Positions 3,603 through 44,550 of a stretch of 44,550 bases of DNA are shown in pieces (the stretch's first letter is position 1; every line of letters begins with the position of its first letter). Position numbers and translations under genes: made by a program. Source of the stretch: a virus; IMG/VR virus record IMGVR_UViG_3300022669_000019, positions 1 to 44,550 of that record; one strand, 5' to 3'. The notes below the pieces were generated by a model. It saw nothing but the letters and a program-made list of their open reading frames with translations. It ran no database searches and had not been told where the DNA came from.

Positions 3603-3643
3603 GGCCTAATCATCACCAATGATGGCAACGCTGTCAACAATCG

Positions 3644-3760
3644 CTATTTCTTGGCGTAGGGGTCGGATTTCTTCTTCCTCCGAGGATTCAAAGTCTCCTC
3701 CAGGCCCATCACATCGCCGAAGGTTCCGGGCTTGTACGGCCTTCTCGGGCGTGTGAAATG
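3644..3760 (-). pseudogene. Broken duplicate of the terminase C-terminus
   Basis: Read on the minus strand, this stretch encodes 38 residues and a stop that match the last 38 residues of the terminase (3966-4082) at 33 positions: HFTRPRRPYKPG, then T for S, FGDVM, and so on to DPYAKK. Homology continues past the stop to about 3607 (matching to about 3930), including a TTGACAGC element, and ends abruptly beyond 3762. Upstream, the frame meets a stop codon without any start, so the copy is not a gene. The two units lie about 322 bp apart. The copy has diverged mainly at silent or conservative sites, so the duplication is not recent. Confidence 0.8.
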
Positions 3761-3965
3761 GGTCGGGATCGGACCTGCGGACCTGCGCTCGGGCTCCTGG
3801 CGCGCCCAACATCACAGGCAACCGAGGTCCTGACCCGCAAGCCCCGGGAGCTACCCGAGGTCCCCATGGAGCCCCTCGTGGGCCCCAATGGTTCACGAAG
3901 CGTGCCTATTCACCCAGTGAACCTGCGGACATGATCGCCAACGATGGCAATGCTGTCAACCATTC

Positions 3966-5735
3966 TTACCGCTTCGCGTAGGGGTCTTTTTTCTTCTTCC
4001 GGCGAGGGTTCAGGGTTTCGTCGAGCTTCATCACATCTCCGAAGCTTCCGGGCTTGTACGGCCTTCTCGGGCGTGTGAAATGGATGATCTCTTTACAGCC
4101 GTGCGTCAAGTAGGCGGAGGCCATGACCAGGTCATCAAACTCACCTGAAGGAGCACCGGTCACCAGGTCCACGGATCGGGCGACGTCGTCAATGACGTCG
4201 GTTTTGTTGCGTGGCTTGAACTGATAGCGTTTGTGCTGGGTGATGTTATCGCTCGACACCAACATGACGTCCTTGCGTCGAATGGCCAACCGATGATCTG
4301 CGATGATGGTGTCGCCCACCCCTCGATGATGGCCCAAAAGGTCACTGTGCCGGCGGGCAACCGTTTGCTCGCGTCGTTGATGATACATATACGAATAACC
4401 CATTTCGTCGTACAGGCGACGCAGGCAAGGAAGCCCGAATTGACGTTCACCGACGATGAAAGCCTCGTAGTAGAGCATCCCCAGCGAGTAGAGGATCTCA
4501 GCGAAGTAGATGTCACCCCAATGACCCACGGCTTCGGCTACCTGGCGGACCTGCCCATCGGAAGTCTTGATCCCAACGACGGCGGCATCGTAATCCTTTC
4601 CGACCAGGCCGGCCGCGAAGTCGGCACCGATAACGTAGTTATCTTGTTCCTTGATGTCTGGGGGCTCATAAATGGTGATCCGGCCACCTTCGATCTCCAT
4701 GCCGGGACGCCACTCGAAGAAGTATTCGTTTCTGGCTCCAAAGAACCGATGACCCATTTGCTGTCCACCAGCGGCGATGATTGCAGTTTGCAGTTTATCG
4801 TCGGCCGCTTGGTCCTCATCGGGCCGGAAGACGATCGCTCCTTGTTCCCCGGCCTGAGTTTCCTTTGCCATTTCTTCAAGAGCTTCAAAGAAGAAAACCG
4901 GCATACCAGTGAAGTCCGCATACCCACCTTTCAGACGGACGTGACGTTCTTTTTCGCTGGCGGTCGTGATCGACTCGTAGTGGGCATAGTCTTCCTCAGT
5001 CATCTCCGGGTTGTCTTCGATCCCTCCGACGTTCCAAACGAAGGTCTTGGGATGGGGCTGGGCATCCAAAGCGGCTTCGTTGGTCATACCCAACTCACGG
5101 CAGAAGTTCTCCCATGGCTGGATGACGCCTGTGACAAACCAGGTAATCCCCAGCGTCATCGTTGACGCGACCATGTATCGGGTTTTCTTTTTGCCTCGCC
5201 GGCGATACATCATTTCATTCCAGAACTTGCGATCTGGGTGCTCATCGAAGTACACCGCATCGAGCTGCACACCCTGCACCGCTTCCCAGCTCGAATCGCT
5301 CGACAACAGATAACAACGTGATCCGTTGGGCCAGATATAGCAATGCTTCTGCTCCTTCCAGATCCACCCTTTGGTGAACACCGATTCGATCTCCGGCCGC
5401 ATGATGTCGTACTGTTGATATTTTTGACAAAACCACACCGCATCGGTGGGCCGGTCTGGATTGGGCATGACGTGCGGCTTGAAGGGGTCGGAGCGCTGCA
5501 TGAGCATATCGACATCCAACGCCATGCAAGTCGTCTTCCCCCAGCCATTGCCAGGGATCAAGATGCGATAGACCTTGTCTGATTTAAGGGATTGGGTTTG
5601 ACCGTGATCGTGTGGATGGATCAGGTCACCGGGCCGCGAGTCGCGTAAATAACGCTTCGACTCTTGGGCCAGCGTCAGTTCGACGATTTCAGCGGCTTCC
5701 TGTGGCGTGAACAGTTGGGAGCACGCTACAGCCAT
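3966..5735 (-). CDS. terL: Terminase large subunit, 589 aa
   Basis: Motor ATPase and nuclease that package DNA through the portal into the prohead. The N-terminal ATPase domain has a variant Walker A, GNGWGKTT (residues 62-69), and a Walker B VYFDEH with Asp164 and Glu165. The nuclease domain starts near residue 365 with ADFAAG (Asp372), then Asp381/Asp383, and a late acidic site in FDDLVMASAY. The C-terminus is very basic (RRKKKK). Length is usual for the family. It follows a virion protein gene after 12 bp. No small subunit adjoins it; the HTH protein at 23581-24324 is a distant candidate. Its last 38 codons are duplicated just downstream. Confidence 0.93.
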   Translation of the reverse strand: MAVACSQLFTPQEAAEIVELTLAQESKRYLRDSRPGDLIHPHDHGQTQSLKSDKVYRILIPGNGWGKTTCMALDVDMLMQRSDPFKPHVMPNPDRPTDAVWFCQKYQQYDIMRPEIESVFTKGWIWKEQKHCYIWPNGSRCYLLSSDSSWEAVQGVQLDAVYFDEHPDRKFWNEMMYRRRGKKKTRYMVASTMTLGITWFVTGVIQPWENFCRELGMTNEAALDAQPHPKTFVWNVGGIEDNPEMTEEDYAHYESITTASEKERHVRLKGGYADFTGMPVFFFEALEEMAKETQAGEQGAIVFRPDEDQAADDKLQTAIIAAGGQQMGHRFFGARNEYFFEWRPGMEIEGGRITIYEPPDIKEQDNYVIGADFAAGLVGKDYDAAVVGIKTSDGQVRQVAEAVGHWGDIYFAEILYSLGMLYYEAFIVGERQFGLPCLRRLYDEMGYSYMYHQRREQTVARRHSDLLGHHRGVGDTIIADHRLAIRRKDVMLVSSDNITQHKRYQFKPRNKTDVIDDVARSVDLVTGAPSGEFDDLVMASAYLTHGCKEIIHFTRPRRPYKPGSFGDVMKLDETLNPRRKKKKDPYAKR

Positions 5736-12461: not shown

Positions 12462-14273
12462 TTAAGCGACGCGGTTCATTGGATTCATGCCCACCGCACC
12501 GGCCTGCTGGGGCCTCGGGCCTGCCACCTGGCCGTTGACGGTGAACTGGTTGCTTGGGCTGCCTGGGCCGGCCTCACGCCCAACCTGGCCCGGCTGCTGC
12601 TGCGATCGTTGTCCTGGGAAGCCCAGACGCGACGGAGCACCACGTTGCGGCGGCGGCTGCTTCCCGAGGACCAAGGACGGGGGCGACATCGGGGGCTGAC
12701 TGAACGCACCAAACAATTCAGGGATGGACCATTCGTCAGATTTGCCGGGCACCTTCAGAGCGATTTCGATGTCGCGCAGGACGTTCATCCAGCGGGCGTA
12801 TGGGATTTGTGGGGCCAGCATCATGACCTCTTTCCATATTTGATAAAAGGTCAGAATGTTGTCCTTGGCTGTCATCTCCATCTGCATCGTGTTGACGCGG
12901 ATCGACATACCAAAATCGTCCCACGTCGCACCGCCATCGGTCGGGGTTGGGCCACCGAAGAACAAACCTTCCAACAACTCGCCCGAGTATGGATCTCGGC
13001 GATTGACTGGGATGACAAAGCCTTCGGTGTGGAAGCAATACCACCCGATTTTCCACAGGCTTGAGCTTGTCGACCTCAAGATCCGTTTTTTCAAGAACGT
13101 CACGCGAGCACCCAGGGCATCGTCGGCGATTTTGGCTTCTGTAGCTGTATCCGCCTGGCCGACGCTACCCTGAATCGTGGCAGTCAATCCACTGATCCGA
13201 TCCAATCGGTTTCGGATGTACTCGACAAACTGGAAGGTCTTTTCGGTTGCCGCACCCAATTCAACTTGAAGGAAATTGCCTGTGATGCCTTTGACCGGCA
13301 CGATCTCCCCATCCTCCGCGTCAGCAAGCTTGTTGCCCAGGTGCGGGTTGTTGGCTTCAACCAGACCGATCACCTTCCGCCTGGCGGCCGCTCGCCCCAT
13401 CGCTCGGGCGTGGATGTTCAAGTCGCGGGCCTGATCCTCCACGGCGACCAAGGGCGGCAGGGGCCAAGCCTGGCCCGGTACGGGATAAGCGTCATAAAGT
13501 TCGTAGGGGCCGCATTTCGGACCGTAATAGGGCCGCTCCTTGTAAAGTTCAGCCACTTCAGACGATTCGACCAGCACACGGATCGTGTTACGGTTTCGGA
13601 TCCAAACGCTGTAGCACTTGACCCGTTGCCGGCCCAATTCCGAGCCAGATTTGCGGTTGTAGGGCGATTTGCGTGTTTGGCTACTGATTGAAGCATCCTC
13701 GCCGGGAGTGAGCATCTCCAAGGTTTCGGGTTTCACGTCGGGATCGTTTTGCAGGTCATCCAGGTCCACCCAATACCAATGGCCTCGAAACTCATCGTTG
13801 ACCGTGTCTTCGGCCAGCGAATCCATGAAGAAGTTGCGATAATTGATCCGGGCCACGACTGGTTTGACGTTCCCTCGGCTGAATCGCTGTTCTTCATCCA
13901 GGTAGTGAAGCGTCACACCACGACAAGCCATGTAATCGACGTATACCGGCTCATGAACCGTTGCCCAATCCAAATCCTCGACGACGCTGGTAATGCCGTC
14001 TTCCATGGCCTGGGCCACGATCTTGTGGCCAATGACGCGCTTGGCTTCGACCTGCACGCCGGGATTGCCGGCAGAGAAGGTGGGCAGCATGTTGGACATG
14101 AAGGCATAGCCGAAGTTCTCGGGCTCGGGCTCCATCTCCCCCAGGTCTTTGCGATACCATCGGCCGGTGATCCGACGCATGATGTCGTTGGCACCTTCGC
14201 TGTGCTCCTCTGTTTCCTCGATGGCAGCTTTGACCTCTTTCCAGAGGTCGCCGGTTGTTGGATTAAAGGCCAT
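12462..14273 (-). CDS. Portal protein, 603 aa
   Basis: The dodecameric ring at the unique head vertex through which DNA passes. Size fits podovirus portals. Support: an N-terminal helical clip (LWKEVKAAIEETEEHSEGANDIMRR), a central region with WYWVDLDDL and a long helix containing DQARDLNIHARAMGRAAARR, then EKTFQFVEYIRNRLDRISGL, the crown-side helix, and a Pro/Gln/Gly-rich C-terminal tail of about 70 residues. GGAG lies seven bases before the ATG. It lies downstream of the giant polyvalent gene and far from the capsid gene, an unusual order. Confidence 0.75.
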   Translation of the reverse strand: MAFNPTTGDLWKEVKAAIEETEEHSEGANDIMRRITGRWYRKDLGEMEPEPENFGYAFMSNMLPTFSAGNPGVQVEAKRVIGHKIVAQAMEDGITSVVEDLDWATVHEPVYVDYMACRGVTLHYLDEEQRFSRGNVKPVVARINYRNFFMDSLAEDTVNDEFRGHWYWVDLDDLQNDPDVKPETLEMLTPGEDASISSQTRKSPYNRKSGSELGRQRVKCYSVWIRNRNTIRVLVESSEVAELYKERPYYGPKCGPYELYDAYPVPGQAWPLPPLVAVEDQARDLNIHARAMGRAAARRKVIGLVEANNPHLGNKLADAEDGEIVPVKGITGNFLQVELGAATEKTFQFVEYIRNRLDRISGLTATIQGSVGQADTATEAKIADDALGARVTFLKKRILRSTSSSLWKIGWYCFHTEGFVIPVNRRDPYSGELLEGLFFGGPTPTDGGATWDDFGMSIRVNTMQMEMTAKDNILTFYQIWKEVMMLAPQIPYARWMNVLRDIEIALKVPGKSDEWSIPELFGAFSQPPMSPPSLVLGKQPPPQRGAPSRLGFPGQRSQQQPGQVGREAGPGSPSNQFTVNGQVAGPRPQQAGAVGMNPMNRVA

Positions 14274-14901: not shown

Positions 14902-17900
14902 TTATCGTCGCCTTTCTTCCGCACGACGGCGGATCTGGTGAGTTTCTCGGGCCGTATTGATGATTTCATCGTAAAGATTCGTAACTCGTTGATCCAAGAG
15001 ATCCGCGTCAAACTGATCTCGGTTTCGGTACAGGTTCCGCATCTCACTGAACCGCTCACTCATGCGACGATGCGCACTGGTGTACTCGGGCCACAGGGCC
15101 AGGGCCGAGTCGTACTGACGGGCATAGAGGTCGTACCGCTTTGGGCTATCCTCTCGGGCCTTGAGGCCACTATTGATCCGCTTGAGCCGGTCAAAGTCGT
15201 CATAGAACCGCGTCACCGCTTCGTGTCCGCTTCGGGTGTGGGATGCCAGGAACCGGCGAACAATCAACCAATCATCAAATTCAAGAGGTTCGCCAGTCTT
15301 TGCGTCAGGGTCAACAGCACGGATGAACGGATCAATCCCGACCTGCACCGCGTCACGGCCCAGGCCGCCGGTCCAACCCTGAATTAGATAATCGATCTTG
15401 GCCGGCGGGTAATCTATCCATCGACCCATGATCCTGGCGAACTCACTCGACCGCGTCGCTCCCTGCTCACCGAGGGGCAAATCCTTGTCTGCACTCGATA
15501 CGATCTCATGGTCACGATAGAAGCTATAGCCTTGATCGCCGGCCATGACTTCGATCAACGGTTGAAGGCCCGCGATATTAAATGTCGGCCGCAGCTCCGA
15601 AAGCAGCGAATGGATAATACCCTCAAACGCTCGCCGGTCGCCTCCTGGCTCGCCTGTTTCGGGATCGATACCGAACAACAAGGCAAAACTACGCTCCGCA
15701 GCAATGCTGAACGCTCCCAAACCGTAAGGCTTCGGCAGCTTCAGGTATGTCGGCCGGCCGCGATCATCTGAGCCGGTCGGGAAATACCAGTACCGATCCC
15801 GCATCCCCCTGGGTTTCGACCAATAATCATCGTTGTCCCAATTCATGAGCATCGAAATCAACGATGGCACGATCGAGTATGTAAAGATCCGGCCGGCGGC
15901 TTTCATCGGACTCTTTTTGATGAATCGGCCCAGCTTGTCCACCCCGAGCATGGCTGCATTGAAAAAGACGATGACCTCATTGGCCTGCTTCGACCACGTC
16001 CCACCACGTTGGAAATCCAAGGTGATGTCGGCCGCAGCCTGGCCGGCTTCGGCGATCGCCTCAAACTCGGGTGCTCCGCGTCGCTTGGATTGCTCATAGG
16101 TCACTGCAAACTCACCAAGACGATTCGACAACTCAAAGGCCCGATTGAGTCGATCAATACCTCCCAGCTTCGCAATGTCACGGATCGCAGATTTGACGTT
16201 GTCGCCCTTGATCAATCCTTTGAGCCGTGGCTTCTCAAACATCTTCTCGAAGTCGAGTTTCGCGGTCCGTGGGTTGTAATACTCGCCAAACAGGCCCGCC
16301 ATGTCCGCTCCGCTGGCCAAAAACAGGTCATGGATATCACCACCGACAAAAGCCTGCTTCATGCCCTTGAGACGGAGCCTGGTTTGCTCGGGCAGCTTCC
16401 GCATGTCGGATTCAGTCATGGTCAATGATTGATTCAGGTCACGGAGGAAGTTGGGCACAAAGAACGACGGGTTAAATTGCGTTGCCCCAGCTCGAAGGAT
16501 TCGCCCAGGTATACCGATCACCTTGACGAACAGATTGGTGCCGGCTGGGTTGTTGAGCCCTTCAAGCAGATCAAAGAGTCGGGCGTCCTTGATCTCATAG
16601 AAGACGGGCTTACCCTTACGAAGCACTGAAACCTCTCGATTGTCTCGATCGGTGCGATTGTCTGGCCGCCAAAAGGTTTTACCCTGCAACGACGCCAAGG
16701 CCCGCACAAGGTTCATTTGCTCATCTTCGCTGAGATTCTCCAAATAGGGCGGTAAAACGATCTCACCGTCCTTGGTCACCCCGATGCCGATCTGTGTCAT
16801 GAATTCGGTGCCCAATTCCTGGGCCGTCACACGCATCGACTTCATGGGCCGATCACGCTTATCGATCCATCGGCCGACGCCGGGCGTACCCTTTTCGACG
16901 TGGTTGATGATGCCAAGAGCCACTTGATTGAGCCTGGCATTGCCGACGATCCCCTGCATGGAAGCCATGAACGATTCAAGCGGTGGGAATAGCTGTTCGC
17001 CGAATCCTTCACGGAACCGACTGATTCCGCTTGCGCGGCCTGTAAAACCGCCTCGGCTGGTCGGTGCGTACTTCCGCTGTAGGGCGTCTTCGGTCTTTTT
17101 GTGCCTGAAGGTGATGTATTCCAGGTTTTTGACCATGATCAACAGGGCTTGCTTGGTGTCAATCAGATTATGGCCGACCGCATACTCGCCAATTAGCCAT
17201 CGGTTGAACTCTTGAAATTCTTCGGCTGCCTGCTCAAACTCGGGATGGGTGCCTTCAACCCGCTGAATGAACTCCCTGAGCTGCGAGCTGCTGGTCTGGT
17301 CTTTGAGTCGCTGGTCTTGCGGCAAGACGTGGAGGCCCTGGCCCCGCTTCTCCAGGGTACGACGTGCCACCATGTAATCCTGCCAAATACGCAGATTGTT
17401 TTTGATTGGCTCAAGGATCTCCAACAGGCCCTTGCCGGTCTTGCGTTTGGCCGGATCCGCGACGTCGAACCGGCCCCGCTCCATCATCAGCTTGATGTCA
17501 CCGCTGATATGGCCATTGACGCGCAAGGCCATGGTGTGCGGATCCAAATGGGCCGGCAGATCGCCCAAGCCCAGGTCTTGCTTGAAAGTGACCAACCGCT
17601 GATATCGATCAAACAACCTCGACCGCACATCATCCCACAGGTTTCGAGCACTAAACGACGCCAACCGGCCGGGCTCATCGTGTGCGATGAACTGGTCGAT
17701 AGGGTTGTTGGTGGCAATGGTCACCGAATTCAGTAATCGCACGCGAGCATCGAGCAGGGCCAACCAGACCTCGGGATGATGCGTCGTCAAGGTCTGAACA
17801 ACCTGTTGATAAACTGTCGGTGCTCGCTTCTTCAGGTGCCTTGGATTGGTCACCAAGAACCGAACCACTTCGGCCCAACCTTCGGTTGCATAGCCACCTA

Positions 17901-20900
17901 CATTGGGTTTTCGGTCACCGTACAGGTCTTTGCCGAGGGTCTGCAATTCCTTGGACCATGCCTTGGGGAAATCGTAAGCACTGATCGTTTTGGACATTCG
18001 CCGGGCAGTTAAATCGTTCTTGGATGGCCGCGTCGCACGGGCAAACATGACTTTGTGAAGGTGATGGCCCAGCTCATGGACAAAGGTGCTGACATACGAA
18101 CCACGCTTGAGCCTGATCGCCTCTGACTCGATCCGATAGAAGCCGGCAGCCCACCGGCTCAAGATGCGTTGCCGGGCAAGGCCAGGGGGTCCAAGTCCAA
18201 ATCGGCGGGCAAGGTCCGAAATGATCTTGTAGATGTTGTCCAGCTCCAAACTCTCACCGCCATCACGACGGGCTCGGGCTCTTGCGATTGCCGACTTGAC
18301 CTTCTTGGGCCGGTCGGCCAGGCTCCTTCGAAACGCTCCCTCCTTGGCCCCAAGGGGATTCAAATCGTTGGTATAGCTGCTGGTGTCAACGGGTGGGGCC
18401 TCGGCCGCTGCCGGCTTTCGCTTCGGCGGCTTCCCCTTCTGTCTACCGCTGGCCGGCTCGAAACTCAGATCGCCGGGGATGACCGCCATTGGAGCACCTG
18501 CGACGCCTGGGGCCTCATCGGCGACCGACTCGGGTTTGGCTGGTGTCGTGTACTTCATGGGCATGATGACAGATGTGACGTAGCGCGTCGGGGTCATGGC
18601 CCGGAAGATGAATGGTTGCTTGCCGCTGACGTTGTTGGCGAAGACCTCCACCGTCTTGGCGCCCATGGCGTTGATGAACTCGATAGTTCCGAGCATCCGT
18701 GTGGGATCGATGCCAAACTCAAGCTCCGTCGCACCCTCTTTGACGTTGATCTCGGCATGGCCCAGCTTGCCACCCTTGGCGAATCCAAGCGTACCGTCTG
18801 GGTTGACCATGACCATGGCAGATAGATCGTCCATCTCCTCGGCCAAAATGTTGATCCGCCGCAGATGGTTGGCCACTTCATCGACGTCGAGGGTGGCCGT
18901 CTTGGCTCCCGCGTTCTTGTCGTAGCCAGCGAGCATCTCATCGATTTTTGGCAAAATCTCTTTGACGAACCGACTTTCCGTGGCGGCTGGCTTCAGTCCG
19001 TCCTTGCCGATCCCATGAGCCCCATCCTTGCCCCAATTCTCCGACTCGTTGGTGATGCGCACGGCCGTCCTGGCGTCGGTGGTCACCAGACGCTTGCCAC
19101 CTTCATCGATGAACACATGCCGACGCTCGAACGGTGCGTCTTTGGTGATCAGGGACACTGCCTTGAGCCTGGCCGGCTTGTTCGACGCGGGCTTCGGCAG
19201 CTTCTTGGGGCCTGGGACCTTCTTCTTGGTGGGCCCTGGTGGTGGTCGTCGCTTGGGATCACGCTCAAACTCTTTGCGGATCTTCTCTTGCTGTGCCTTG
19301 ATCTTGGCATCGTCGGTCGGGTAGAACCACAGTTGAGCACCGGGCACGCCGGTGTCTTGCTCTAATAAATCCGCGTTTGGCTCGACTTCCGGCGTGCCTT
19401 CTTCGGGCTCACCTTCGGGTTCGACTTTGGCTTCGACTTCGGCTTCGGCCTCGGGTTGGGTATCGTCTTTGGCACGGGTTGGACCTTTCTTTTTGAATTG
19501 AATGATCGTTGTCGATCCAAATATCTCACGCAGACGTTTCACGGACCCGCCATCGGGAGCAACGTCGGTAGATTGGCGGACGTTAACGATCACGCCGTCA
19601 TGTCCCATTGCCTCGATGCGGTTCCTTGCTGCCCTCAAGATCGGCAAACGTGGCTTATTTTCAAGTGGTATTGATTCAACACCGGCAATTTCGGCCAACT
19701 GTTTGTCGGATTCGATCACGAACGGGTTTTCGAGCGTGATGGTTTTCTTCTGGATGTCAGGTCCAAAGACCCTGGCAAAAGATTCTGAAATAGCCCAATA
19801 GGTGCCATCACCCAATGCGTTCTCCGATACACCTTCAGCCAAAACCGATTGGCTTGCATCCCTCCCCACGCCCCTGACGGCGTCAACCTCGGTTGGCTGG
19901 CCGGTTGAAACAGGACTCAAAATATCAGTTTGTTGTTCCAGGCCGGACAACTCAGCCCTCATTTTTTCGATTTGTTCTTCCGGTAGATTGTTCTTCCTGG
20001 CGGTCTTTACCAGTTCCTCGATATCGGTCGGCCTGGCCACCACAGCCGAAGCCTTCACTGGCTTCGTTGATTTGGAAACGATTTTCTTCGCCTCCTCACG
20101 GCCGGGCAGGCCCTCGGCCTTCTTCAATGCACCCTTGCGGGCCTCAAGGTTCTTGTCGGCTGCCTGTCGCAATTGCTTGATGTCGGTGTCTACGCCGGGC
20201 TCACGGATCGTGAATCCGAAGCCCAACAAGGTCTTGAGCCCACCGGGAAGCTTGACGCCCTGCTCCTCCATGGCTGCGACGTAGGCCCGTTGCATACGCT
20301 GGCCCACCATCTCGGCCTGTTCGGCTGTGACGTCGTACAAGGCGAACTCGAACTCATCGCCACCAAGACGAGCCACGACCCCGAAGACGTCGCCAGGTCG
20401 GCCGTCTACACCTGACCGGACGCTGTCTTCCATGGATTTGGCGGCTGCAACCAAGGCACGATCGCCGGCTTCATGGCCCAACAAGTCGTTAACTTGCTTG
20501 AACAAGATCAGATCGATGCCACCCACAGCCAGGGCCTTGCCCTCGGTGTCGGCTCGCTCGATCAGATCGGCCATCTGTTCGTTGGCTGCACGGAGGTTGG
20601 CAATCCCGGTCAGTTCGTCGATGCGGGCGAGGTCATACTCTCGCTCGACCGCTTCTTCGGCCCTTTCAGCTCGGCTTTTTTCCACTCGCTCAGCTTCCCG
20701 GCCTTCTTCTGGTGCTTGTTCCCGAGGTTTGTCCTTTTCTTCCGTCGGAGGTTCTGCACGCTCTGCTTTCCCTCCCGCTTCGATATCGACTTCTGTAATT
20801 CGGGCTTCCAATTCATCGATCAGGTTCCTTGTCCTGGTCAACGTGTCCTTGGCCCTGGGGCTGCTCACGCCATACGGATCCTGGGCCGCACGCTGAAGCT

Positions 20901-23460
20901 CTGTCAATCGTTTTTGGACGCTACGCATCGACTCGATGTCGCCGGCCTCGATCGCGGTGCGGGCGATGCTTTCTAAGTTGCGCACCCGTGGATCTTGGGC
21001 CTGGCCCGCTTCCATTCGCTTACGCGACTCGATTAAAGCGGTACGCGGGTCTTGACCTGGTTTGACGCTGAAGGTCGTGCCGGTGGTTGGGTCCGTGTAC
21101 TGCTGGCTGATCACGTTGCCGGCGGCATCGAGCTGCGGGCCGTTGTAGACAACGCCTAATCGTTCCGCCGTCGCTTGCGGGCCAGCCTGGTCGATCTTGG
21201 GCTCATCATCAGGCCGTCGCCCGGCTTCTGGACGCTCTCCTCTGCCAGCTCCTTCGACGGGTATTTCTTCTTCGACAGGGGGGGCAGGAGGTCCGACAGC
21301 ACCTTCGGGCGGGGCTTGCCCAATAGTGCCTGCTTCAATTTGCTGCGCCAAGCTCTCAGGAACATAGCCGCGAATTGTACTGGCTCCCCGTTGCTGTGCT
21401 GCAAGGGTGCGGTGTGTGCCGTCGATGGTGTCCAGGGGTCGAGATCCGAGCCCGCCAATCACAATCACCGGCGGCAGGTCGGCAAGCTCGGCTTCGCTCT
21501 TGGCTGCGATCTCTTGGACCTTCGACTCGATGACCTCGCCCTTGGTGCCTTTGCTGGCCTCGATCAGATCGACCGGGATGTCGATCAGGCGGAACCGTTC
21601 GCCGGCGGTTGACGCCAACGCCTCGATGGCCCCAGCGTTCTTGGCATCCATGTACGTCTTGCCGTACCAATCAGCTACCCGGCGAGCGGTGGGAAGGATC
21701 CTGGGGTCTTTCCGGGCCGGCGGTTTGATTCCCGTGCCCTTGGGCGGTTCAGGCGGTTGGGCCGGCTCCTCCTCCTTCTTGACGACCTTTGGGGCCTCGG
21801 GTGCAGATTCCCTACCTTGCCTGGCTTGCGCAGCTATACGCCCAGCTTGTTGGGCGCGATCGATCCTGGCGATGATCTCGGCTTCGGCCTCCTGCTGGAT
21901 GTCGGCCCGGATACCCTTCCCCCCTTGAGCTGCCCCCACACCTGCACCGACCAGACCGCCAGCAAGCGCGGCAGTGATCACTCTCTTGGTGTTCTCCCAA
22001 GACACGACCGGGCCAGTTGCTCCGCCGGCTTCAAACTCGGCCAACACGCCGACCATTTCCTGGGCCGCTTCCTGCGAACCTTCGATGACCGTGCCCCGTA
22101 ATGCCCCCTTCAGGCGGTTGATGGTTTGTGGATTGGCCAGCACAAACGCATCGATTGGGGCCTTTTCCAGTAGGGCATTGACGACGCCGACGCTGATCCC
22201 CGCGTACAACGCCCGTTGATTGGCCTCCTGGTGGCTGTATCCCTTGGACACAAGCTGATCGTAGACGGTCCGATACGCTCCGCCGCCTTCTTTAGCGCCC
22301 ATGAAGCCCATGCCGCCGAGCTGGGTTGAGAGTCGAGCCAGACGGCCATTGAGCCCGGCCAGCTTCGCACCACCACCGCCGACGCTGGAAGCCACCAACG
22401 TTTGAGCCAGGTCGCCGGCTACGCCACCCATAGTTTCGGCAAATCGATTGACCTTGCCCATCATGCCCGGATCGCGGCTCGTGCCTAATAGTCGGTTCTC
22501 GCCGGCCTGACGCGACCAATAATCTTGGATCGCTGCTTGCTGCTCACGCATGCCGAGGTCGTCGCCGATGGTTCGTTCAAGGAATTCGGAGATGCCGCCG
22601 GCACCGATCGTGCCCACAAAGGTTGCCAGTGAATCTTGGAAGCTTTTGACCGCACCGGTCCCCGCCGCAATCGCTGGTTGGAGAATGCCCGGAGCCCGAT
22701 CAACCAGCGGATCCGTGGCTTGTTGGATCTGGGCAAGCTCTTGGTTGAGTTGGTGTCGGTCGATGACCGTCCCGATCTCTCCCGCGTTCGATGGGTTGTA
22801 GCCATAGCGGGCCAGTTGACGGTGCATGTAGTTGTAGACGTCAGAGTCCCTCGCATCGGGATGGGCAGATCGGTATTGCTGGGCCAGTAGATTGCCATAT
22901 TCGTCCCTATCTCTGAGATATCGGGCTTCTGGGCTGTTCTCGCGGTCGAATTGCTCCCCCAGCTCTTCCCGCTTCTTGTCGAATTGCTCAGGCCCGATCG
23001 ATGCGTACAGGTCTTGCCGCTGCTGGTAGGTCATTCGCGGCTGGATCGCGCCGAGATGGACACCCAGCCGGCCCAGGGGATCAAGATCGGTCTGACGCTG
23101 GAACGTGGGGCCAGCCATGGCCGTTTGTTCGACTTGTTCGAGCCATTGGCCCATCTGGTTATCGATGAACTTCTGGCGATCCTCGCCGGTGACCGTGTGC
23201 GGCTGCTGGTCCCTCATCCGTTCAAGCTGATCGGCGGCCCTGACATCAACCTGGCCCTGCCTCATGGTGAACGGTTCGGAGATGTTGTGTTGAGCCCTGG
23301 ACGGACCTGTGAAGCCGCGACGCTCATACTCAGCAGTCAAAGCCTGGATGGGTGCAGGAGCTTGCAGGCCCCGACGCTTGAACTCCATGCCAAGACGCAC
23401 GGCCGGCGGTAGCTCGGTCGCGGGCATCGGCTGGATGGGTCGGGTCATCGCCGAGGTCAT
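14902..23460 (-). CDS. Giant polyvalent virion protein, 2852 aa (ParB-like, GGDEF, ART-like, clamp-like, metallopeptidase, LPD38-like)
   Basis: Probably carried in the virion and delivered with the DNA. Order of parts by residue: 1-560 helical with weak hydrophobic stretches; 610-705 ParB-like domain with DTIDGTHRTLAAQQ (677-690); 940-1115 GGDEF cyclase with DELTG (948), metal Asp983, FK (987), Asn991, Asp1000 and intact GGDEF (1033-1037); 1190-1325 ADP-ribosyltransferase-like domain (Arg1196, then GDGTYWAIS and FARVFG); 1428-1637 DNA-clamp-like domain (TTDARTAVRI at 1460, IMPMKY at 1632); about 1740-1880 zinc peptidase HELGHH (1795-1800) with Glu1860/Glu1864; 2329-2640 LPD38-like region starting FNPSFFVPNFLRD. 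Charged Glu/Pro/Lys linkers separate the parts. Start ATG at 23460, weak ribosome site. Domain calls are by motif memory. Confidence 0.85.
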   Translation of the reverse strand: MTSAMTRPIQPMPATELPPAVRLGMEFKRRGLQAPAPIQALTAEYERRGFTGPSRAQHNISEPFTMRQGQVDVRAADQLERMRDQQPHTVTGEDRQKFIDNQMGQWLEQVEQTAMAGPTFQRQTDLDPLGRLGVHLGAIQPRMTYQQRQDLYASIGPEQFDKKREELGEQFDRENSPEARYLRDRDEYGNLLAQQYRSAHPDARDSDVYNYMHRQLARYGYNPSNAGEIGTVIDRHQLNQELAQIQQATDPLVDRAPGILQPAIAAGTGAVKSFQDSLATFVGTIGAGGISEFLERTIGDDLGMREQQAAIQDYWSRQAGENRLLGTSRDPGMMGKVNRFAETMGGVAGDLAQTLVASSVGGGGAKLAGLNGRLARLSTQLGGMGFMGAKEGGGAYRTVYDQLVSKGYSHQEANQRALYAGISVGVVNALLEKAPIDAFVLANPQTINRLKGALRGTVIEGSQEAAQEMVGVLAEFEAGGATGPVVSWENTKRVITAALAGGLVGAGVGAAQGGKGIRADIQQEAEAEIIARIDRAQQAGRIAAQARQGRESAPEAPKVVKKEEEPAQPPEPPKGTGIKPPARKDPRILPTARRVADWYGKTYMDAKNAGAIEALASTAGERFRLIDIPVDLIEASKGTKGEVIESKVQEIAAKSEAELADLPPVIVIGGLGSRPLDTIDGTHRTLAAQQRGASTIRGYVPESLAQQIEAGTIGQAPPEGAVGPPAPPVEEEIPVEGAGRGERPEAGRRPDDEPKIDQAGPQATAERLGVVYNGPQLDAAGNVISQQYTDPTTGTTFSVKPGQDPRTALIESRKRMEAGQAQDPRVRNLESIARTAIEAGDIESMRSVQKRLTELQRAAQDPYGVSSPRAKDTLTRTRNLIDELEARITEVDIEAGGKAERAEPPTEEKDKPREQAPEEGREAERVEKSRAERAEEAVEREYDLARIDELTGIANLRAANEQMADLIERADTEGKALAVGGIDLILFKQVNDLLGHEAGDRALVAAAKSMEDSVRSGVDGRPGDVFGVVARLGGDEFEFALYDVTAEQAEMVGQRMQRAYVAAMEEQGVKLPGGLKTLLGFGFTIREPGVDTDIKQLRQAADKNLEARKGALKKAEGLPGREEAKKIVSKSTKPVKASAVVARPTDIEELVKTARKNNLPEEQIEKMRAELSGLEQQTDILSPVSTGQPTEVDAVRGVGRDASQSVLAEGVSENALGDGTYWAISESFARVFGPDIQKKTITLENPFVIESDKQLAEIAGVESIPLENKPRLPILRAARNRIEAMGHDGVIVNVRQSTDVAPDGGSVKRLREIFGSTTIIQFKKKGPTRAKDDTQPEAEAEVEAKVEPEGEPEEGTPEVEPNADLLEQDTGVPGAQLWFYPTDDAKIKAQQEKIRKEFERDPKRRPPPGPTKKKVPGPKKLPKPASNKPARLKAVSLITKDAPFERRHVFIDEGGKRLVTTDARTAVRITNESENWGKDGAHGIGKDGLKPAATESRFVKEILPKIDEMLAGYDKNAGAKTATLDVDEVANHLRRINILAEEMDDLSAMVMVNPDGTLGFAKGGKLGHAEINVKEGATELEFGIDPTRMLGTIEFINAMGAKTVEVFANNVSGKQPFIFRAMTPTRYVTSVIMPMKYTTPAKPESVADEAPGVAGAPMAVIPGDLSFEPASGRQKGKPPKRKPAAAEAPPVDTSSYTNDLNPLGAKEGAFRRSLADRPKKVKSAIARARARRDGGESLELDNIYKIISDLARRFGLGPPGLARQRILSRWAAGFYRIESEAIRLKRGSYVSTFVHELGHHLHKVMFARATRPSKNDLTARRMSKTISAYDFPKAWSKELQTLGKDLYGDRKPNVGGYATEGWAEVVRFLVTNPRHLKKRAPTVYQQVVQTLTTHHPEVWLALLDARVRLLNSVTIATNNPIDQFIAHDEPGRLASFSARNLWDDVRSRLFDRYQRLVTFKQDLGLGDLPAHLDPHTMALRVNGHISGDIKLMMERGRFDVADPAKRKTGKGLLEILEPIKNNLRIWQDYMVARRTLEKRGQGLHVLPQDQRLKDQTSSSQLREFIQRVEGTHPEFEQAAEEFQEFNRWLIGEYAVGHNLIDTKQALLIMVKNLEYITFRHKKTEDALQRKYAPTSRGGFTGRASGISRFREGFGEQLFPPLESFMASMQGIVGNARLNQVALGIINHVEKGTPGVGRWIDKRDRPMKSMRVTAQELGTEFMTQIGIGVTKDGEIVLPPYLENLSEDEQMNLVRALASLQGKTFWRPDNRTDRDNREVSVLRKGKPVFYEIKDARLFDLLEGLNNPAGTNLFVKVIGIPGRILRAGATQFNPSFFVPNFLRDLNQSLTMTESDMRKLPEQTRLRLKGMKQAFVGGDIHDLFLASGADMAGLFGEYYNPRTAKLDFEKMFEKPRLKGLIKGDNVKSAIRDIAKLGGIDRLNRAFELSNRLGEFAVTYEQSKRRGAPEFEAIAEAGQAAADITLDFQRGGTWSKQANEVIVFFNAAMLGVDKLGRFIKKSPMKAAGRIFTYSIVPSLISMLMNWDNDDYWSKPRGMRDRYWYFPTGSDDRGRPTYLKLPKPYGLGAFSIAAERSFALLFGIDPETGEPGGDRRAFEGIIHSLLSELRPTFNIAGLQPLIEVMAGDQGYSFYRDHEIVSSADKDLPLGEQGATRSSEFARIMGRWIDYPPAKIDYLIQGWTGGLGRDAVQVGIDPFIRAVDPDAKTGEPLEFDDWLIVRRFLASHTRSGHEAVTRFYDDFDRLKRINSGLKAREDSPKRYDLYARQYDSALALWPEYTSAHRRMSERFSEMRNLYRNRDQFDADLLDQRVTNLYDEIINTARETHQIRRRAEERRR

Positions 23461-35006: not shown

Positions 35007-35762
35007 TTACGGCGATGCGACCACGGGATCAGGGATTCCGCGATCGGGATATCCAAATGGGGTAAGTCGCCGCTTGGGATGTACCGCACCGTGCGGCACG
35101 CCAAAGCTCCCAACCGACAACCCGTCTTTCGTGATGCAATCGACGATGAGAGCCTTAAACTCAGCCGTGTAAGCTGATTGGGGATCGTCATCGTAATCGG
35201 TCGAAGCGAACGCCCTGGCGAGGAGCGACGCCGGCCGATCCATGTACGCAGGCCACTGCGGACGATCTGCATCGTTGACCAGCCGCCTTAAAAAACGCCG
35301 GTAAACGATTTTCAAACCACCGACCTGTGTTTCGGCCGGTGTGGGGTAGAGGGCAAGCGTCGGTAGCGACAATCCGGCATCTTCTTGGCCCAGCTCGACG
35401 TTGCCCGTGTTGATGACATAGAAAAATCCACTGGTCCATGAACGGACTGGATGTTGGCGGAACCAAAGCAAGGTCTGCCAAGACACCGGGATCATCTGAT
35501 CCGTCCAACTTTCGTCGTGCTCCAAAGCGATCAACGTGCCAAAATCAGCCGGCAGCTCGACATAGTCTTGGTCCGCCGTGATATCCAACTCGTTTTCGCC
35601 TGTGCTGGTCCATTGCCAATCGTTCATGGTGGCAATGTGCTCCAACGCATCGTTGACGATGTCACCAGCAGAGATATCCAGGTCCGCGACGTCGGGATTG
35701 CCGATGGCGTGGAGAACCTGGGCCTTGTAGCTGGCGAATGTGCGTCGATCACCTTCGGCCAT
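35007..35762 (-). CDS. Head-tail adaptor-like protein, 251 aa
   Basis: Start MAEGDRRTFA at 35762 with GGGAGG nine bases upstream. The sequence follows the podovirus adaptor pattern: a helical N-terminus with GDIVNDALEHIATMNDWQW, a beta domain with ELPADFGTLIALEHDESW, then LYPTPAETQVGGLKIVYRRF and a late helical segment ASLLARAFASTDYDDDPQSA. These proteins form the ring beneath the portal. Its place before the nozzle gene agrees. A GC hairpin lies in the 71-bp gap above. Confidence 0.65.
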   Translation of the reverse strand: MAEGDRRTFASYKAQVLHAIGNPDVADLDISAGDIVNDALEHIATMNDWQWTSTGENELDITADQDYVELPADFGTLIALEHDESWTDQMIPVSWQTLLWFRQHPVRSWTSGFFYVINTGNVELGQEDAGLSLPTLALYPTPAETQVGGLKIVYRRFLRRLVNDADRPQWPAYMDRPASLLARAFASTDYDDDPQSAYTAEFKALIVDCITKDGLSVGSFGVPHGAVHPKRRLTPFGYPDRGIPDPVVASP

Positions 35763-35789
35763 GACTGAATACCTCCCAACACCAGCCAA

Positions 35790-35808
35790 GGGGGGCATGG
35801 AGCCCCCC
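35790..35808 (-). other. GC hairpin between decoration and adaptor genes
   Basis: GGGGGGC (35790-35796) and GCCCCCC (35802-35808) with a 5-base loop form a 7-bp all-GC stem; flanking CC and GG can extend it across a mismatch. No T tract follows in either direction. It sits 25 bp below the stop of the gene at 35834 and may stabilise the upstream message. Confidence 0.5.
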
Positions 35809-35833
35809 AAGGCCGATCAGGAATGAAACCGAA

Positions 35834-36510: not shown

Positions 36511-37599
36511 CTATGCGGCCGTAATCAAGCCTTGACGCTTGCGGCTTCGCATAAAGATGTTGTAGTACGTCGTTTTCCAAACGACGTAGCTAAACGGTTG
36601 TCGTGGATGCTGCATCGGGTCTTTCTCCGTCATGTACTTCTCGGAGTGGAAGATCGGATACAGATATTCCAGGTTGATGTAATAGAAGAACGGTTGGCCC
36701 GAGGGGATAGCCACACCGTTGTTCACCAACGCGGTGTCCAGGGTGCTGATGTACTCCACGGGCAGACCCGCGTAGGCCACCTTGCCGGCAATCCAACCCA
36801 AGTTATTGGCGGGCGTCAGCCGGTCATTGCTGTCTCGGGTCAAGCTCTGCAAGAGGGTCACGCCGTCCAGGTTGGTCGCAATGACCATTCGCTGAAGACG
36901 ATCGTTCTCATAGTATTCTTGAGCCCCACCCATTGGGGAGATGAAACGGACCTTGTGCCACATGCGGTCCATGGCACGAACCAACCCGCTGTTGGTATCG
37001 GTTGGGTTGTCCGAATCATAAGTCTCGGTCTGGTTCCGCCAACCAGCTTCGTTCGTCGGATTGACACCCATCAGGGTCGTGAAACCCGTCGGGGCCAGCC
37101 CGTCGGCCGTGATGAACGAATTGATCGAATAAGGCACTTTGCCGTCGGCGGCTTCCATACCCGCGTTCGATGGTGCAGACCACAAAGCGTCCTCGATCTT
37201 GTTGTAGAGCGAGGTATGACAAGCCTGCCGCTTCGACTTCAACAGGTTCTTGTAATAAGTCTGCGGATCACCGCTATTTAGCGTGATCTCCTGTTCGGTG
37301 TACGAATAGTGATCGGCGATGAAACGCCAATCGACTTGGATGCTGATCAACGAATCAACGTTCTGGATGTCCAAGTCTTCGTTGGGGTGATAGAACTCAG
37401 CGGTTCCCACGTCATTGAGCTGAATCCGATCGACGATCTTCTGACCAGACTGAACACTTTGAGCCGCGTCGCGGCCCTTGAGCATACGGCCCAGCATGTA
37501 GCTGTTTTTGACAGCGTCGTTGATGATGTCGTCGGGGCTTGTGGCTACCTTGACGCCGGTTGCCCGCACGAAGGCGTTAAAAGATGCAAGTGATGGCAT
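36511..37599 (-). CDS. Major capsid protein, 362 aa
   Basis: The shell protein of the head. It follows a scaffold-like gene and precedes a strong terminator, the usual capsid context. Sequence features: an N-terminal helical arm (MPSLASFNAFVRATG), an acidic E-loop region (AEFYHPNEDLDIQNVDS), ADHYSYTEQEITLN, a conserved helix with LLKSKRQACHTSLYNKIEDAL, and a C-terminal part with FFYYINLEYLYPIFHSEK. Length fits an HK97-fold capsid without an added domain. The fold is inferred from context; no residue motif proves it alone. Confidence 0.75.
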   Translation of the reverse strand: MPSLASFNAFVRATGVKVATSPDDIINDAVKNSYMLGRMLKGRDAAQSVQSGQKIVDRIQLNDVGTAEFYHPNEDLDIQNVDSLISIQVDWRFIADHYSYTEQEITLNSGDPQTYYKNLLKSKRQACHTSLYNKIEDALWSAPSNAGMEAADGKVPYSINSFITADGLAPTGFTTLMGVNPTNEAGWRNQTETYDSDNPTDTNSGLVRAMDRMWHKVRFISPMGGAQEYYENDRLQRMVIATNLDGVTLLQSLTRDSNDRLTPANNLGWIAGKVAYAGLPVEYISTLDTALVNNGVAIPSGQPFFYYINLEYLYPIFHSEKYMTEKDPMQHPRQPFSYVVWKTTYYNIFMRSRKRQGLITAA

Positions 37600-40998: not shown

Positions 40999-41550
40999 AT
41001 GAAACCCAATAAAGAAGTAGGAGCACTGCGGGGCGCTGCTCAGGACGCCATGCGGTGGGCACAGGCAGATATGCCGTCAACGGGCTACAAGGCCATCGAG
41101 CGGCACCGTCTCATAAGCGACATACTCGACGCGACGTACAAGCTCGCCACGATGCAGTCACTGGACGATATATGGCGTGCTGCTGGTCAGCCCGACCGAT
41201 CCCACATCGACGACGCGACGCAGGCGCGAGAGGATGTGTACGATGGAGGTACACTTAATCCACGGCCGGAGATCGGCGTCGATTACGACTACAACGTGAT
41301 CTCGAACGAGGTAGGGGCACTGCTGGGCGCTGCTCAGGACGCCATGCGGTGGGCACAGGCAGATATGCCGGCGACGGGGTACAAGGCCATCGAGCGGCAC
41401 CGTCTCATAAGCGACATACTCAACGCGACGTACAAGCTCGCCACGATGCAGGCACTGGACGATATATGGCGTGCTGCTGGTCAGCCCGACAGAGTCCACA
41501 TCAATGACGCGAAGCAGGCTCGGCTGGACGTTGAGGCCCGCAATCCCTAA
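40999..41550 (+). CDS. Tandem two-domain early protein, 183 aa
   Basis: Two copies of an about 80-residue helical domain: residues 6-90 and 103-183 share EVGALxGAAQDAMRWAQADM, TGYKAIERHRLISDIL and DDIWRAAGQPD with only a few changes. A single-domain relative follows at 41568-41834. AGGAGAG lies five bases before the ATG and the early promoter is 47 bases upstream. The domain has a conserved RWAQ and GYKAIERH core; I do not recognise its family. It is the first gene expressed, so a host-takeover or regulatory function is possible but not shown. Confidence 0.75.
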   Translation: MKPNKEVGALRGAAQDAMRWAQADMPSTGYKAIERHRLISDILDATYKLATMQSLDDIWRAAGQPDRSHIDDATQAREDVYDGGTLNPRPEIGVDYDYNVISNEVGALLGAAQDAMRWAQADMPATGYKAIERHRLISDILNATYKLATMQALDDIWRAAGQPDRVHINDAKQARLDVEARNP

Positions 41551-41567
41551 CCGAAAGGCAGGAAACG

Positions 41568-41834
41568 ATGGAAGCTAACCGAAACACCGAAGTATCGGCT
41601 CTATTGGTTGCAGCACGGACCGCCATGCGGTGGGCACAGACCGACATGCCCGCCACAGGCTACAAGGCGATTGAGCGCCACGCCGCAATCGACCAGATAC
41701 TGCAATTATCCGAGCGGCTATCCGTAACACAGTCGATGGACGATATATGGCGAGCCGACGGCCAACCCGACGACCAACGGAACATCAACGACGCGACACA
41801 GGCTCGGATTGCGTTCGAAGACTGCAACCCCTAA
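41568..41834 (+). CDS. Single-domain paralogue of the preceding gene, 88 aa
   Basis: Matches either domain of the gene before it: VSALLVAARTAMRWAQTDMP, GYKAIERHAAI, DDIWRADGQPD and DATQAR. It is more diverged than the two internal copies are from each other, so it split first. Its leader (AAAGGCAGGAAACG before the ATG) is repeated almost exactly before the next gene at 41852, showing that the leader was duplicated too. Confidence 0.75.
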   Translation: MEANRNTEVSALLVAARTAMRWAQTDMPATGYKAIERHAAIDQILQLSERLSVTQSMDDIWRADGQPDDQRNINDATQARIAFEDCNP

Positions 41835-41851
41835 CTGAAAGGCAGGAAACG

Positions 41852-42493
41852 ATGAAAATCGAAGCGAAAGTCGCTGAGTGGGCAACCGCCTCGACCGGCG
41901 ACGCCTACGGCGACGTCTATATGATCTACTACACCGTATCGCTGGCTATAGACAATAGGCGCCACGAGTTGCGAGGATTTTTTTTGGGCGGATGGATCCC
42001 GGCGGGCGCGCATCAGGATATAGACGGGTCTGGACTGGCAGATTGGGGCAGCAGCCAGCCAGGAGGGTGGCGGACATGCGACACCGACGGCCAGGAGAGC
42101 GGAGCGATACGCGTCTCATATGATGATGATGGACAGATCCGGGTCGGCAACGGTGAGGCCGCAATATCGCTCACCGGCACGAGAGACGACGCAGATCGGA
42201 TCGAGCGTGCTATCGAGGACGCCATCTCGGCCTCAGACATCGACCTGGACGAGCCGGACGCCGAGCCCATCTACGACTACATAGATCCTGTCGATGGACT
42301 GGACGCCCTACCGATCCGCGTCGGAAACTACATGGGTGCTGGCCCAGTACTGGCGTGGGAGGATGGTCCAGACTACGCCATAGCGCCCTATCCGACCGAC
42401 GCCGACATCGAGTCGGCGATATCAGCGATCCGCGATCCGCTGCGAGCGATTATCCGGCACGAGGCCGACGCATTGATTGACCCGGAGGATTAA
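41852..42493 (+). CDS. Hypothetical acidic protein, 213 aa
   Basis: Start at 41852 with the repeated leader GGCAGGAAACG; the frame back to 41747 overlaps the gene before it in another frame and is rejected. The protein is acidic (many Asp, Glu), with a beta-rich first half (YGDVYMIYYTVSLAIDN) and an internal near-repeat of DAEPIYDYIDPVD-type segments. No signal or membrane segment. Small acidic early proteins often act as mimics or inhibitors of host proteins, but nothing here proves it. Confidence 0.65.
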   Translation: MKIEAKVAEWATASTGDAYGDVYMIYYTVSLAIDNRRHELRGFFLGGWIPAGAHQDIDGSGLADWGSSQPGGWRTCDTDGQESGAIRVSYDDDGQIRVGNGEAAISLTGTRDDADRIERAIEDAISASDIDLDEPDAEPIYDYIDPVDGLDALPIRVGNYMGAGPVLAWEDGPDYAIAPYPTDADIESAISAIRDPLRAIIRHEADALIDPED

Positions 42494-44451: not shown

Positions 44452-44550
44452 ATCCCCGAGAGCTTTCTCCCCTCCTCCCCCCTTGGCTTTCGGGCCAGGG
44501 GGGGTTTTTGGTTGCCTACTTTCCCCCGGTGGTGGCCGGGGAAACGCCCG
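44452..44550. repeat. Terminal direct repeat, right copy
   Basis: Exact copy of bases 1-99. It starts one base after the last base of the TATACT element of the promoter at 44424-44451 and ends inside the second terminator hairpin, so on the circle this promoter reads directly into the terminator ladder at 26-209. Confidence 0.9.

Follow-up and report, generated by a model that had tools for sequence, protein, structure and literature searches.

A divergent GGDEF domain in an LPD38-type polyvalent protein of a phage, with a preserved substrate site and altered near-invariant residues

The locus described here raises the question of whether a phage may carry, within a giant protein whose class is predicted to leave the particle together with the phage DNA, a GGDEF domain that can still serve as a source of c-di-GMP. 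The window, i.e., the whole stretch of 44,550 bases that was analysed, is one entire virus record (IMGVR_UViG_3300022669_000019). The record starts and ends with the same 99 bases, an exact direct terminal repeat (1-99 and 44452-44550), because of which the genome was taken as complete. The ORF of interest shares this genome with packaging and head genes, namely those of the major head protein (MCP), an adaptor and the large terminase subunit (Table 1). A tRNA search of the genome found none, PADLOC returned no matches, and the majority of the remaining ORFs that were tested in family searches matched no family. When the MCP, the LPD38 region and the GGDEF domain were each used as a single-protein query against viral contigs, no relatives were retrieved; since this was so for the MCP and LPD38 scans, the phage is isolated among the collections searched. 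Two repeats were also seen in the genome: a small plus-strand gene present in two to three tandem copies at 40999-41857 (a 227-nt unit with 91% identity, other parts with 76-81%), and a 153-nt direct repeat, 82% identical, at 3609-3761 and 3931-4083, at the 3' end of the terminase gene.

Table 1. Positions of features in the window and, for the polyvalent protein, in its amino acid sequence
Feature	Residues	Position	Strand	Evidence
Terminase large subunit (TerL)		3966-5735		
Probable portal		12462-14273		SU10_portal match, score below cut-off
Polyvalent protein ORF, uninterrupted	2852 aa	14902..23460	-	Pfam LPD38 and GGDEF matches
C-terminal core common to phage LPD38 proteins	~2001-2830	14971..17460	-	75-86 of 87 relatives over 2041-2761
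LPD38 domain	2544-2706	15343..15831	-	Pfam, 75.6 bits against cut-off of 27
HExxH (HELGH), probable zincin-like metallopeptidase domain	1795-1799	18064..18078	-	Motif; Pfam match below cut-off
GGDEF domain	946-1110	20131..20625	-	Pfam, NCBIfam, model
GGDEF signature	1033-1037	20350..20364	-	
Displaced RxxD (RPGD), eight residues ahead of GGDEF	1021-1024	20389..20400	-	
Asp1000, guanine-specificity position (Ser in Hypr cGAMP synthases)	1000	20461..20463	-	
Asp983, metal site	983	20512..20514	-	
Leu956 (Arg in 50/51 comparators; EcGReg R306 position)	956	20593..20595	-	
DELTG	948-952	20605..20619	-	
Charged helix ahead of GGDEF domain	925-940	20641..20688	-	Helix 6-21 of modelled segment
ParB-like DGTHR motif	680-684	21409..21423	-	Motif only, no Pfam support
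SU10-type adaptor		35007-35810		47.7 bits against cut-off of 27
Major head protein (MCP)		36511-37599		phrog_9953

Two Pfam domains, GGDEF and LPD38, scored above their own cut-offs in the giant ORF, so that LPD38 is fused with an unrelated enzymatic domain in one large protein, as is characteristic of phage-type polyvalent proteins. LPD38 has been reported only from such proteins (PMC5512222), and by its sequence, with an LPD38 C terminus and an HExxH motif, the window protein is one of them. Homology to 87 phage LPD38 relatives spans residues ~1750 to 2830 and is strong from residue 2001; the first ~1670 residues have no relatives within the same set. The HExxH motif is also present in nine of the 87. 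By eye, residues 1180-1345 (19426-19923, minus strand) resemble phage ADP-ribosyltransferase (ART)-like domains (DGTYWAISESFARVFG...LENPFVI), with no support from Pfam. Since Pfam returned no matches for the ParB-like and ART-like segments or for residues 1480-1760, none of them is claimed as a domain.

The GGDEF assignment itself was straightforward. The domain, which falls inside the interval of 20100-20640 where a first-pass annotation of this DNA had placed it, scored 80 bits with Pfam (cut-off 23.8; 2.2e-22) and 68 bits with NCBIfam TIGR00254 (cut-off 37.4), and searches of NCBIfam, PHROGs and the PDB all agreed on its identity. The PleD-family model matched at 3e-20 over residues 932-1108. 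Structure prediction pointed the same way: folding from the single sequence produced a poor model (pLDDT 61), which was superseded by an alignment-based model of the GGDEF segment (52 aligned domains) with a pLDDT of 92.7 and a pTM of 0.87, and the best solved-structure matches of the latter included WspR, SiaD, SadC, GcbC, DosC and PleD, at E-values between 1e-13 and 1e-10. It is to be noted that this fold match supports the assignment but not independently, because the alignment behind the model consists of GGDEF domains. Residues 946-1110 are thus a genuine GGDEF domain, far above chance. In the model, the charged helix preceding the domain is similar to the stalk helix found in many diguanylate cyclases and may play a role in dimer formation. 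An argument for foreign origin from base composition was dropped because GC3 is similar in the GGDEF segment (0.74) and the MCP (0.71).

The domain is a rare addition to LPD38 proteins, since all 88 further LPD38 ORFs that were checked lack one. Eighty-seven of these, from IMG/VR and named phages and including a few cut by contig ends, were searched with a GGDEF profile that also detected ordinary GGDEF domains; it scored the window at 7.6e-38, a value partly by construction because the profile contained the window's own domain. The remaining one came from a genome scan, for which a seven-row LPD38 alignment proved too diverse and a four-row alignment worked, returning a single locus, in Bacillus litorisediminis, which likewise lacks a GGDEF domain. 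That locus (L182, 7337 onward) encodes an LPD38 protein of 1445 aa and is a probable prophage. The GGDEF domains in the best 80 of 453 IMG/VR matches lie in ORFs of 183-1002 aa, and a further polyvalent case may exist among the rest of the 453. A GGDEF-like fold match was also seen in BFVD A0A516M277, a 1143-aa fragment of a viral protein, which is possibly a second polyvalent GGDEF protein.

The explanation that we tentatively prefer is that a GGDEF domain on an LPD38-anchored, probably virion-carried polyvalent protein makes some c-di-GMP after ejection, without the normal feedback. The domain would have been acquired from a bacterial diguanylate cyclase; the giant protein would be carried in the virion and ejected together with the DNA; the neighbouring metallopeptidase-like domain would possibly release the GGDEF domain thereafter; and the latter would pair with a second copy, bind GTP, and, once inside the newly infected cell, produce some c-di-GMP free of normal product inhibition.

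Whether such a domain could act as a cyclase depends in the first place on its residues. Those named in the first-pass annotation (DELTG, D983, FK at 987-988, N991, D1000 and GGDEF) were all found under the same numbering, and the GG(D/E)EF motif is intact in a domain that exceeds the curated cut-off. Every residue expected to contact metal or GTP is present (D983, F987, K988, N991, D1000, E1036 and K1109), the last of these being the C-terminal helix lysine found in 51/51 comparators. These comparators were 51 GGDEF domains from viral contigs, in which 28 columns were at least 90% conserved; they had been selected with the motif [FL]Kx[IVY]NDx[YFL]GH, a choice that biases columns 987-996 and leaves the four positions discussed next unaffected. 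The window domain is changed in four of the 28 near-invariant columns, namely R956L, D985I, S1080G and Y1106E (none mentioned in the first-pass annotation), as against no more than two changes in any comparator, and in the domain tree it has the longest end branch (1.45; median 0.56). In EcGReg (DosC), mutations were made at L300, D333, F337, K338, N341, D342, D350, L353, R372, G374-F378 and also R306, with D333, F337, K338, N341 and D350 reported as substrate or metal contacts (PMC5549716). The window domain has the identical residue at every one of these positions except R306, which corresponds to Leu956, the correspondences here, as well as those to Hypr enzymes and IsPadC, being derived from motif register and chain offsets and not from structure superposition. 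In this register D333 equals D983, and the offset is a constant 650 up to L353 and 659 at R372 and the GGDEF motif, the shift being due to a nine-residue insertion between the counterparts of L353 and R372.

The catalytic core as read from the sequence is therefore kept in its metal site, GTP site and general-base residue, but the earlier description of the domain as catalytically complete goes too far and is not supported in that form, several near-invariant residues being lost. This loss is an argument for the strongest rival explanation, in which a domain that still folds and binds GTP has little or no cyclase activity and either serves the virion protein as a module for structure, GTP sensing or oligomerisation, or is in the process of being lost. 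We regard this as a serious possibility. The R306A mutant of EcGReg was without function in vivo (PMC5549716), and the arginine in question, which follows GLxN and is 94% conserved among predicted diguanylate cyclases, corresponds to the cross-dimer Arg537 in IsPadC and to Tyr304 in the Geobacter Hypr enzyme (PMC6456294). In other cyclases it contacts the base of the partner subunit. The long branch, and the absence of GGDEF from all of the 88 other LPD38 ORFs checked, also favour this rival. On the other side, the known metal and GTP contacts are all in place and the signature motif is unaltered, whereas decaying GGDEF domains usually lose the motif early. Moreover, Leu956 is not necessarily fatal, because GacA variants with a GGDEF motif, Tyr at the arginine position and Asp at 348 remain active, GTP-specific diguanylate cyclases. 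Overall, the residue pattern leaves cyclase activity about evenly balanced.

With regard to product inhibition, the RxxD motif indeed lies eight residues ahead of GGDEF, as the first-pass annotation had noted, and not five as in 44 of the 51 comparators; the usual I-site spacing is thus lost. The displacement results from an insertion between D1000 and GGDEF, a gap of 32 residues here and of 22-25 residues in 50/51 comparators. In the alignment, the columns normally occupied by the I-site hold Arg1015 and Asp1024, with the insertion between them. From this loss of spacing it follows that canonical product inhibition is unlikely. It does not follow that the enzyme is an uninhibited source, as had been suggested, since in other diguanylate cyclases I-site mutations can lower activity as well as relieve inhibition (PMC5549716).

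Delivery, the other element of the preferred explanation, was addressed through the LPD38 class, membership in which supports the earlier placement of the domain in a protein of a type predicted to enter the cell with phage DNA. In Pelagibacter phage Lederberg and in isolate ct8d5349, the LPD38 gene is located two genes behind an annotated internal virion protein gene and directly ahead of a tail fibre gene. By analogy with these relatives, packaging of the polyvalent protein in the virion and its ejection with the DNA are most likely. The rival in which the protein is not ejected, and either works late in infection inside the cell that makes it or is only an assembly scaffold, draws on the fact that neither virion proteomics nor other direct evidence of packaging was found for any LPD38 protein, that of this phage included; given the class and the synteny of the relatives with internal virion protein genes, we consider it unlikely. 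The most far-reaching form of the ejection scheme, in which a feedback-free diguanylate cyclase raises host c-di-GMP at DNA entry, before phage gene expression, is itself rather unlikely. The weakest rival, a promiscuous domain or one that makes another dinucleotide such as cGAMP, can point to the missing cross-dimer arginine, a feature shared with the mainly cGAMP-making Hypr enzymes (PMC6456294), but is very improbable, since Ser or Thr occupies position 1000 in the natural Hypr enzymes and the Asp found here drives GTP specificity. Asp1000, as in GTP-specific cyclases, predicts the use of GTP and so c-di-GMP as product over cGAMP.

Under the preferred explanation of a virion-carried cyclase with some activity, motility or surface behaviour of the host may be affected, or the product may act as a decoy, and the proposals that the host is switched to a sessile state or its immunity misled are speculation; the first-pass reading as a whole is partly supported. 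The immunity proposal also meets an objection: bacterial STING, the known defence that responds to c-di-GMP, is reported to drive infected cells into suicide when it senses this molecule (PMC8748872), and on that account a phage source of c-di-GMP would harm the phage in a STING-bearing host. If active, the domain would allow a direct test of whether phages use second messengers from virion-delivered enzymes, an idea proposed in 2017, of which no experimental test was found in the literature. It also offers a concrete case in which the substrate site is intact while both the cross-dimer arginine and the usual spacing of the I-site are lost, and can thereby inform the minimal requirements of a cyclase.

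Several known systems bear comparison with this locus. The LPD38 proteins of named phages, i.e., Lederberg gp8 and those of Escherichia phage Pondi, Bacillus phage Pony and Achromobacter phage CF418P1, share the C-terminal ~800 residues at 21-26% identity, and the genes of Lederberg and ct8d5349 are placed among structural genes; unlike the window protein, none of the four named-phage proteins has a GGDEF domain. With the bacterial cyclases WspR, SiaD, PleD and DosC/EcGReg, the window domain has in common the fold, the metal and GTP residues and the GGDEF motif, but it differs in lacking the canonical I-site spacing, in the four substitutions R956L, D985I, S1080G and Y1106E, and in residing inside a phage protein of 2852 aa. 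Phage-encoded GGDEF domains also occur in gp350 of Bacillus phage G, in Bacillus phage SP-15 and in others, with BFVD matches among them, but there as separate proteins of ordinary size that are not polyvalent. Comparable too are the polyvalent proteins of Iyer et al. (2017), some of which were described as carrying GGDEF domains, one of them a giant prophage protein of Acetonema longum in which GGDEF is combined with zincin and ART domains; these were proposed to interfere with cyclic-nucleotide responses of the host or to act against rival elements (PMC5512222), and the idea of a phage GGDEF domain acting on host signalling is therefore not new. In contrast to the GGDEF polyvalent proteins of that study, neither a SWI2/SNF2 nor a methyltransferase domain was detected in the window protein. 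The Acetonema protein (WP_004096050.1), likened here by its published description, is also a giant phage-type multidomain protein that combines GGDEF with a zincin-like metallopeptidase, whereas in the window the GGDEF domain is joined to an LPD38 core in a complete 44.5 kb phage. Thus, GGDEF domains in polyvalent proteins were already known, and the window domain is a new, divergent example of them.
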